64,000 nt of DNA from Sulfurimonas sp. HSL-1716 (GTDB lineage: Bacteria > Campylobacterota > Campylobacteria > Campylobacterales > Sulfurimonadaceae): positions 1,240,001 to 1,304,000 of the forward strand of contig NZ_CP147918.1 in NCBI RefSeq assembly GCF_039645975.1, written 5' to 3'. This document shows, one piece after another, positions 13,647 through 16,515 of this stretch (position 1 is the first letter of the stretch; each line of letters opens with the position of its first letter). A program made the position numbers and the translations under genes. Under the pieces are notes generated by a model. The model was not told where the DNA came from. It searched no databases and saw nothing but the letters and a program-made list of their open reading frames with translations.

Positions 13647-14237
13647 ATGTCATTTGCCAATTCAATGGAGTTACTGGCTTTTCACAAGGTGGCTTATACC
13701 GCCTATTCGCTCTTGATCATTTCGGTCATAGCGTGGTTTGGCTACAACCTTACGCGAAAGCATAAAGCCAATTCATTAATACGCGTATCGTTTTATACGT
13801 ATATAGCGTTTTTAGTCGCAGCAGGTGTGGGCCATCATATCTTCACCTACAATGTCGTACCATGGGTATCTGAAGATATCACGCGTAACGAGACCGTGCC
13901 CGATAAGAGCTATCACATCACCGTTAAAGATCACCATTTCATCCTTCCAAAAGAGAAGATGGTCGTCAACTGCGGCGAAAAAGTACTTTTTGACGTAAAA
14001 AGCAAAGATCTTGTCTACGGTTTTGGTCTTTTTAGAAAAGATCACTCCATGGTTACACAGATGCAGGTCAATCCCGGAACGAAAAACGATATCCTCTGGA
14101 CGTTCAACGAATCGGGTGTTTTTGATCTTATGTCTACGGAGTATTCTGGTCCAAAGGGTAACGGCATGTTCGTTCCCGATGTCTTAAAAGTACAGTGTAC
14201 GCAAAAAATCGCAATGGTCGACGGAGGTAAAGTATGA
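13647..14237 (+). CDS. Haem-copper reductase subunit II lacking CuA
   Basis: A 196-residue protein with two N-terminal membrane helices (about 15-33 and 46-66) and a periplasmic cupredoxin-like domain (about 85-185), as in oxidase subunit II. The CuA loop, normally CxExCxxxHxxM, reads S163-T-E-Y-S167 and ends at M174: both cysteines are serine and the histidine is missing. It should therefore not bind CuA or take electrons from cytochrome c by that route; a quinol donor or another entry point is implied. AAAAGGA precedes the ATG. The stop overlaps the start of the subunit I gene, so the two are coupled. Confidence 0.82.
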   Translation: MSFANSMELLAFHKVAYTAYSLLIISVIAWFGYNLTRKHKANSLIRVSFYTYIAFLVAAGVGHHIFTYNVVPWVSEDITRNETVPDKSYHITVKDHHFILPKEKMVVNCGEKVLFDVKSKDLVYGFGLFRKDHSMVTQMQVNPGTKNDILWTFNESGVFDLMSTEYSGPKGNGMFVPDVLKVQCTQKIAMVDGGKV

Positions 14238-15907
14238 GTTTCATGAATGATCTAATCAACGGCGCGGACAACAGGTTTGACGTAAACAGTCTTAATGCTC
14301 TGCAAAAAGTGACGCTTCGCGCGGTAGTGGTAGCGTTTTTATTTTACGGTCTTGCGGCACTGGAGGGAATGATCATGCGCACCGCCGCGGTCATCCCCGA
14401 CATTCCTCCCGTATACGGTTCTGTCGACCACTATTTTGCCATCATGACGGCTCATCCGATCGTCGGCATCTTCGGTTCTACTTATCAGCTGGTCTTTGCG
14501 GCTTTTATGTTTCTGGTACCCTATCTGACAAAAAAACCGCTTTACAGCGTTAAGCTTGCAAACGCGGTCTGGGTTCTTATCACACTGGGTACGGCACTTG
14601 CATGGATCGCCGCGTTCATCTGGCATTATGCGCCGTTATATACGCTTTATTGGCCGCTTCCCGCAGACACGACACAATTCAAGATCATAGGCGGCATCAC
14701 TTTTATCGCGGGTGTAGCTATCATCATGGTAGGGACACTCGGATTTATTTACAATATCTATGCAACGATTTTCGCACGTGTCGGTATCCACAAGAACAAA
14801 ACGACCAAAGAACTTCTGATCTCCGGATTCGGTATCGACGGTATGCTTAACCTTGTACATAAACTGACGGGTAAACCGCCTTATACCAAAGAGCCTGCGC
14901 TCTCGCTTCCCGTCGTTGCTATCTTTCGAGGAACCGTCGATACTTTTCTTGACGCGCTTGTGATCCTGAGTGCCGGTATCCTCGTACTGGTGTATCTCAT
15001 CGCAAACGCGGACGGGATCAGCCTCAACGTCGCATCGGTGGATGCCCTTCTTTACAAAAACTGGTTTTGGTGGGGTCTGGATCTCGTAGCAGACGGATTG
15101 GTACTCATCTATGTAGCGGGCTCTTGGTATCTGCTGGCTACGCTTATCACGGGGAAAAAACTCTTTATGGAAAACGTCGCCCGTGCCGCGCTTATGCTCG
15201 AACTGCTCGTCTCATGGATGGTCTGGTCTCATCACCTGCTCGCAGATCAGGCGCAGCCGGAGATAATGAAACTTGTCTCGGGAGAGATGGTCACGGCGTT
15301 TGAACTGCTCACGCAGGGACTTGCACTCTTTATTACGCTTGTTACGCTGTGGAAAGCAAGACCGCTGAAAATGACGATGGAGCTCAAATATCTGCTGGGC
15401 GGTCTGGTAGGATTCGGTCTGGCCGTTCCCGCAGGGATCATTCAAGCGGACATGGCGATGAACAGAGTCCTTCACAATACGCAGTGGATCATCGGCGCAC
15501 ATGTGCATGTCGCAGTCATCGTGGGGCTTTATATGACGCTTTACAGTGCGGTCTACGTGCTTTGGCCGCTTGTGACGAACAATGCAAAACTGTGGAGTAT
15601 GAAGCTGGCAAACGCACATTTCTGGCTGCATCTCATCGGCGGTATCGGTATGGGCGCATTCATGGGAATGGCGGGACTTGACGGTATGCTCAGACGCCAT
15701 ATGTATTTTCACGGAGAGTACAACACCTACATGATCTTAGCCGGAATATGCGGAGCGATGCTGCTATTGGCATGGGTGCTCTTTCTCTTTAACATCATCA
15801 TGTCCGTCGGACTCAAAGGTCTCATCGGGATCTTCTTGCCATCAGCAGATAAAACTGCGAGTTTCGGTGTTGAACCCGAAGCGGTGCCAGAGACTCTAAA
15901 GGCATAG
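14234..15907 (+). CDS. Haem-copper NO reductase-like catalytic subunit I
   Basis: A 557-residue membrane protein with about 12-14 helices. Haem ligands of the superfamily are visible: H74 in helix II, and H423 and H425 in the AHVHV motif of helix X. The helix VII pair H333-H334 fits two metal-site histidines. Helix VI reads WWGLDLVADG, which aligns with WWVVHLWVEG of cNorB; the third metal-site histidine is therefore Asp283, and the cNOR glutamate is Asp287. An Asp ligand plus the absence of the oxidase Tyr-His motif argues for NO reduction, and fits the gNOR family that I recall from Sulfurimonas-type bacteria. An oxygen reductase role is less likely. It lies between the CuA-less subunit II gene and a small membrane protein gene. 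Confidence 0.78.
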   Translation: MSFMNDLINGADNRFDVNSLNALQKVTLRAVVVAFLFYGLAALEGMIMRTAAVIPDIPPVYGSVDHYFAIMTAHPIVGIFGSTYQLVFAAFMFLVPYLTKKPLYSVKLANAVWVLITLGTALAWIAAFIWHYAPLYTLYWPLPADTTQFKIIGGITFIAGVAIIMVGTLGFIYNIYATIFARVGIHKNKTTKELLISGFGIDGMLNLVHKLTGKPPYTKEPALSLPVVAIFRGTVDTFLDALVILSAGILVLVYLIANADGISLNVASVDALLYKNWFWWGLDLVADGLVLIYVAGSWYLLATLITGKKLFMENVARAALMLELLVSWMVWSHHLLADQAQPEIMKLVSGEMVTAFELLTQGLALFITLVTLWKARPLKMTMELKYLLGGLVGFGLAVPAGIIQADMAMNRVLHNTQWIIGAHVHVAVIVGLYMTLYSAVYVLWPLVTNNAKLWSMKLANAHFWLHLIGGIGMGAFMGMAGLDGMLRRHMYFHGEYNTYMILAGICGAMLLLAWVLFLFNIIMSVGLKGLIGIFLPSADKTASFGVEPEAVPETLKA

Positions 15908-15909
15908 AG

Positions 15910-16515
15910 ATGATCTGTATGAGCCGAGCCGCTGCGGAGATACAGACCGTCGGTCTGTATGATCTTATTTTTCAGGATGTACAAAAGATCGCTGGCAAAC
16001 AGGATCTCAGCGAATCGGAGGTGTTGCGTATCATAGAAGAAAATCCTGCGATCCTGGAGGAATATAAGCAGATCAATGTCGAATACAATCTCTCAAATAT
16101 CCATCTGCGAGATATTTTACCGGGTGAGATGGACGAATCGTTCCTCAAAGAGGCTCAAGCGATCAACAAAAATCTGAACACGCTGCGAAAACTGGAAAAA
16201 TACACACTGGATTTCGAGCAGAGTTCGACATTGATCATCATCTTCTCGGTGGAGTTCTTTGTACTCTTTTCGGTTCAGTATTTCATCGTGCTGCTCAATC
16301 TTAAAGAGTGGCAGTTGGAGATCTACGGGGTATTTGCCCTTTCGATCTTCATCGCATGGCGTTATGCCCAAAAAGAGAAACGAAAGTACTTCAAGAACAA
16401 TAATATTTTCCAAAAGGTCTACGATGAGACGCTAAAGATGCTAAACGTTCTTCAAACAAAAGGATGCATCGATATCTCCGATATGACCATCCGTGAATGC
16501 CAAGAGCACGTCTGA
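15910..16515 (+). CDS. Small membrane protein of the NO reductase operon
   Basis: A 201-residue protein that I do not recognise. It has a charged N-terminal half with predicted helices (about 1-95), two adjacent membrane helices (about 103-127 and 134-150), and a charged C-terminal tail with two cysteines (in KGCIDIS and RECQEHV). It starts 2 bases after subunit I, on the same strand, so co-expression is nearly certain. An accessory, assembly or third-subunit role is inferred from position only. A second ATG at 15919 is also possible. Confidence 0.75.
   Translation: MICMSRAAAEIQTVGLYDLIFQDVQKIAGKQDLSESEVLRIIEENPAILEEYKQINVEYNLSNIHLRDILPGEMDESFLKEAQAINKNLNTLRKLEKYTLDFEQSSTLIIIFSVEFFVLFSVQYFIVLLNLKEWQLEIYGVFALSIFIAWRYAQKEKRKYFKNNNIFQKVYDETLKMLNVLQTKGCIDISDMTIRECQEHV

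Follow-up and report, generated by a model that had tools for sequence, protein, structure and literature searches.

What chemistry is to be expected of a haem-copper catalytic subunit whose helix VI carries aspartate where the oxidases and cNOR have a metal-binding histidine? The question arose at a locus of Sulfurimonas sp. HSL-1716, in a stretch of 64,000 nucleotides of contig NZ_CP147918.1 (positions 1,240,001 to 1,304,000, hereafter the window). An earlier reading made from the letters of the window (the sequence-only reading) had proposed an NO reductase candidate of the gNOR type. That proposal fits everything that we tested, and NO reduction itself is what we infer from the fit. We consider it highly probable that the product of this locus is an NO reductase of the gNOR type that is fed by quinol and holds a non-haem metal beside haem b3 with histidine and carboxylate ligands.

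The family has been listed with D as its active-site residue and with members in Sulfurimonas, Sulfurovum and Persephonella (PMC8756737, table A4), and the same source describes a complex of two subunits, the second a cupredoxin-type protein and not one with haem c (PMC8756737). It has also been reported in Methylomirabilis (PMC6094997) and is described as a quinone-oxidising NO reductase (PMC8906906). As of 2024 it was a proposed NO reductase, related to the B-family oxidases and outside the biochemically characterised NO reductases (PMC11388526). Two statements of the sequence-only reading, that a gNOR family of Sulfurimonas-type bacteria has an aspartate ligand and that few members have been studied biochemically, agree with these descriptions. 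We read the D of PMC8756737 as the residue at the Tyr/Glu position, i.e., Asp287.

The window protein fits as a member of this already named family (NorGH), with which it shares the active-site aspartate (Asp287 is invariant), the cupredoxin-type second subunit (a CoxB-like protein encoded at 13647-14237, beside the catalytic gene) and the taxonomic range (homologues of about 80% identity in Sulfurimonas and Sulfurovum). Neither has a cytochrome c partner, and we found no difference between the two. What is added here to the description of the family is the invariance of Asp283 (for which we claim no priority), the loss of CuA ligands from the second subunit, and a third gene. The features of the locus are collected in Table 1.

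Table 1. Features of the gNOR locus, in window coordinates
Feature	Position	Strand	Remarks
Second subunit	13647..14237	+	196 aa; N-terminal membrane helices and cupredoxin-like domain without CuA ligands
Former CuA loop of second subunit	14133..14168	+	Residues 163-174, STEYSGPKGNGM
gNOR catalytic subunit, haem-copper superfamily	14234..15907	+	Open ORF, 557 aa
His74, predicted low-spin haem b ligand	14453..14455	+	Invariant; aligns with helix-II His of CoxA and CcoN
Asp283, replaces first helix-VI metal histidine	15080..15082	+	Invariant; pairs with His of ba3, NorB and CoxA
Asp287, at oxidase Tyr / cNOR Glu position	15092..15094	+	Invariant
His333-His334, remaining two metal histidines (predicted)	15230..15235	+	Invariant
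HxH motif, with His423 and His425 as predicted ligands of haem b3 and haem b, respectively	15500..15508	+	Invariant
Conserved third gene	15910..16515	+	201 aa, helical, with hydrophobic stretch; directly downstream of catalytic gene

Helix VI and the metal ligands of the catalytic subunit

The product of 14234-15907 matched Pfam COX1 (PF00115) with E = 8.7e-51, which upholds its earlier assignment as a haem-copper superfamily catalytic subunit. When it was searched against NCBIfam every model fell below its cut-off, so a standard pipeline would probably label it just an oxidase-like subunit I. The best phmmer matches in the PDB include chains of ba3 oxidase, and the top profile match among solved structures was 7deg_A, with cbb3 chains scoring close. 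Little was gained by aligning the gNOR profile with single sequences in hhalign, and searches of plasmids and phages found no relative spanning the catalytic subunit. The AlphaFold2 model (mean pLDDT 79.6, weak at residues 134-144, about 271-290 and 408-419) has the haem-copper fold, and oxidases and cNORs match it at VIA Z 31-35; values were Z 31.2, rmsd 3.0 and 417 aligned residues for the cNOR 3o0r_B, and Z 32.2, rmsd 3.1 and 424 aligned residues for 4xyd_A.

The other ligands of the superfamily (H74, H333-H334, H423 and H425) are all present, as the sequence-only reading had stated. In three MAFFT modes, His333-His334 align with the His-His pair of NorB, CoxA and CcoN; MAFFT also aligns His423/His425 with the HxH motif of the same proteins. 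All five histidines were invariant in 88 sequences (one row being gapped at the last two positions) and in 22 further rows, down to 61% identity; some rows are duplicates of one another or of the window sequence, and the count amounts to about 105 distinct homologues.

Residues 279-288, in helix VI, read WWGLDLVADG, just as had been claimed. A phmmer alignment with the Thermus ba3 oxidase chain 4n4y runs through helix VI without gaps, and pairing with its WWTVHPIVY sets Asp283 opposite the metal histidine and Asp287 opposite the cross-linked tyrosine. The best ungapped registers against the organism's own NorB (WWVIHLWVEA) and CoxA (FWIYSHPAVY) also pair Asp283 with histidine, and they pair Asp287 with glutamate and tyrosine, respectively. 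The pairing of both aspartates proposed earlier from an ungapped alignment with cNorB is the same as in this register; the motif quoted for it, WWVVHLWVEG, reads WWVIHLWVEA in this genome.

The scores of the ungapped segments against NorB and CoxA did not rise above those of composition shuffles, the segment being short and hydrophobic, and against CcoN the same scoring gave no sensible register. Gapped MAFFT alignments of the mixed families placed gaps in helix VI that shifted with the mode. Because segment scores did not exceed those of shuffles and gapped alignments were variable, we rest the position on three other observations. First, a tryptophan lies four residues ahead of the metal histidine in NorB (WWVIH), CcoN (WWYGH), CoxA (WIYSH) and ba3 (WWTVH), and likewise four residues ahead of Asp283 (WWGLD). 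Second, no gNOR homologue has a histidine between columns 268 and 332, which rules out a misalignment hiding a real histidine; a histidine at the third metal-ligand position was what the sequence-only reading had named as fatal to it, and these columns hold no candidate. Third, Asp283 and Asp287 were themselves invariant in the 88 sequences and 22 further rows, divergent clades of 61-69% identity included, a sample drawn from within Campylobacterota. Invariance in about 105 distinct homologues rules out that the site reflects an error of sequencing or the decay of one gene copy and, with the agreeing registers against ba3, NorB and CoxA, bears out the claim of an aspartate at the helix-VI position of the metal histidine. 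Judged from the aligned homologues, the conservation of the two aspartates is far beyond chance. Counting against our preferred explanation, helix VI lies in a low-confidence part of the model (pLDDT 58-66 around residues 271-290).

A variant of that explanation, compatible with its other steps, would keep Asp283 off the metal, which would then be held by two histidines and Asp287 only, or by an unexpected histidine elsewhere, e.g., His414. The latter is invariant, and the model is weak around residues 408-419. Asp283, however, occupies the ligand position and varies no more than the metal histidines do, and we regard the variant as unlikely.

The non-haem metal is bound by three histidines and a glutamate in cNOR and by three histidines in oxidases. 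With cNOR (NorBC) the window protein shares the fold, two metal histidines and the HxH haem ligands, but cNOR has the third metal histidine and the glutamate together with a cytochrome c subunit, NorC; here Asp283 and Asp287 replace the FeB histidine and glutamate, and the partner is cupredoxin-like. With the B-family (ba3) oxygen reductases, which are among its best PDB sequence matches, it shares aligned haem and metal histidines, but it has no helix-VI ligand histidine or tyrosine, and its second subunit has very probably lost CuA. The His-Tyr pair that marks helix VI of A- and B-family oxygen reductases is absent, as had been noted from the sequence: the helix contains neither a His-(x3)-Tyr pair nor a tyrosine at 287.

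These matches raise the question of whether gNOR might instead reduce oxygen, as a specialised enzyme or one of low activity whose catalytic tyrosine has been lost, since the solved structures closest to it in sequence are those of ba3 and other cytochrome c oxidases. The lack of a tyrosine at 287 disfavours such a role, however, the cross-link position being taken by an invariant carboxylate; in addition, gNOR co-occurs with NirS (see below), and oxidases of the cbb3 and A types are already encoded in the source genome. We therefore think an oxygen reductase very unlikely indeed.

The second subunit and the third gene

The ORF of the second subunit overlaps the catalytic gene by 4 bases, and in essentially all homologous loci the two genes are neighbours in this order, that of the second subunit directly upstream. 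Its product gave weak matches to CoxB (TIGR02866, 1.1e-4) and to the cupredoxin end of NosZ (1e-3), and its sequence has no CxxCH motif. As a control we used the CoxB encoded in the same genome, in which the stretch corresponding to the former CuA loop is an intact CuA motif, CAEYCGTGHSRM. The A-type oxidase operon (L125, 3945-9558) encodes a CoxB that has, besides an intact CuA motif, two C-terminal c-type haem (CxxCH) segments.

Across 103 homologues of the second subunit, the positions of the CuA cysteines and histidines (C, C, H, H) correspond to S163, S167 or alanine, G/Q171 and Y124. Both cysteines are replaced by serine (or alanine, rarely threonine or proline), the histidine of the loop is mostly glutamine or glycine, and the upstream histidine is an invariant Tyr124. 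Four of the six CuA ligands are absent in this set, E165 is kept and M174 is nearly always kept. Because the cysteine and histidine ligands are replaced across all 103 proteins, the CuA centre is very probably gone, and we judge CuA-fed electron entry to be unlikely. From the loss of these four ligands, quinol appears to be the likely electron donor to gNOR. The loss also agrees with the published account of gNOR as quinone-oxidising (PMC8906906).

A homologue of the third gene was present in 89 of the 100 gNOR loci first fetched; diverged copies follow gNOR in the clade of 67-69% identity, and none was detected in loci of the clade of 61-63% identity. The product had no Pfam match, and a fold search against the PDB ended without a match. 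Its model (pLDDT 88) consists of long helices, and the hydrophobic stretch, at about residues 105-142, is strongly conserved. The interval 15910-16515 is unannotated; in most of the Campylobacterota that carry gNOR, this gene comes next. Its product may plausibly have an accessory function or one in assembly.

Distribution and genome context

Close relatives of gNOR are common in Campylobacterota (Sulfurimonas, Sulfurovum, Sulfuricurvum, Nitratifractor and Aliarcobacter), and homologues of about 80% identity occur in Sulfurimonas indica (L058) and in Sulfurovum MAGs. In seven further genomes of the source organism's own genus no relative turned up, so the distribution is patchy. Among 249 near-complete Campylobacterota genomes, 27 had gNOR, 37 had NirS and 24 had both, i.e., NirS was present in 24 of the 27 gNOR genomes (Fisher p = 5e-21). 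When kinship was treated, by a tally of genera only, NirS was present in 12 of 13 gNOR genera (p = 4e-8). The link was weaker in a smaller set of 60 relatives (11 of 15 gNOR genomes, p = 0.005). In the phylum set of 249, cNOR was found in every NirS genome except one (G172, 99% complete), which has NirS and gNOR; cNOR was not detected there, and no qNOR was found. Three genomes of this set (G058, G186 and G265) carry gNOR with no cNOR, no NirS and no full-scoring NirK; the lack of NirS and of such a NirK counts against our preferred explanation.

Carriers of this kind, which have gNOR and no NirS, favour an NO-handling enzyme of some other chemistry (an NO dismutase, or an NO sensor or scavenger) over a respiratory NO reductase. 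So does the active site, which differs from that of every characterised NO reductase known to us. NO dismutases, however, are relatives of qNOR, and the relatives that we detected for gNOR are of the oxidase type; moreover, many carriers, the source genome included, have NirS and NosZ, which fits N2O as the product. Another NO chemistry is, in our estimation, very unlikely.

The source genome encodes NirS, cNOR, clade II NosZ, cbb3 and an A-type oxidase, so gNOR is probably a second NO sink in this organism. That it is the organism's only NO reductase is ruled out by norCB, which adjoins nirS at 118.5-122.5 kb of the contig (cNOR at L124:6530-8609). This canonical cNOR cluster (L124, 6163-10840) comprises an ORF of 107 aa, norC, norB, then nirS and a small ORF resembling a c-type cytochrome. 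The gNOR gene is distant from nir, nor and nos, which counts against the explanation that we prefer, and we counted in the same way its position beside a molybdenum oxidoreductase in some relatives. In the relatives L126 (291-12001) and L127, the neighbours of gNOR are an MFS transporter, a fusion of PP2C and protein kinase, and a molybdopterin oxidoreductase, the last with an Fe-S (ferredoxin)/DmsC-like partner; this oxidoreductase may be a nitrate reductase.

A proposed mechanism and its meaning

In the quinol-fed NO reductase that we propose, electrons would pass from the membrane quinol pool into the catalytic subunit itself, since the second subunit keeps a cupredoxin-like shell and has very probably lost the CuA centre. 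From haem b (His74/His425) they would reach a binuclear site in which haem b3 (His423) is paired with a non-haem metal, most likely iron, bound by His333, His334 and at least one of the two aspartates. Of these, Asp287 would stand in for the ligand glutamate of cNOR, and Asp283 would replace the histidine that is missing. Two NO molecules would be coupled and reduced to N2O at this site, and gNOR would probably serve as a second, quinol-fed NO sink beside the canonical cNOR (norCB next to nirS).

A site of two histidines and two carboxylates is akin in principle to those that non-haem iron enzymes build from two histidines and a carboxylate, and this resemblance of the predicted 2-His/2-Asp site favours iron over copper. 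The likeness to 2-His-1-carboxylate enzymes (two predicted histidines with one or two carboxylates) is one of working principle only: their fold is unrelated, and in gNOR the metal pairs with a haem. More tentatively, and with rather less confidence than doubt, we suggest a fuller picture in which gNOR, fed by quinol, would work with a third, hitherto undescribed component (15910-16515), either a subunit or an assembly factor, and would have beside its haem a 2-His/2-Asp, facial-triad-like iron site, unlike those of all characterised members of the superfamily.

Among the haem-copper NO reductase families still without biochemistry is gNOR (PMC11388526). Its invariant aspartate, standing where a metal histidine would be expected, could show how much a binuclear site can change and remain compatible with NO reduction. 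A possible natural test, in which gNOR alone would have to remove NO, is offered by genomes like G172, which have NirS and gNOR and no detected cNOR. Carriers of gNOR are widespread among the Campylobacterota, a phylum with many representatives in vents and sediments, and the family may shape N2O production there.
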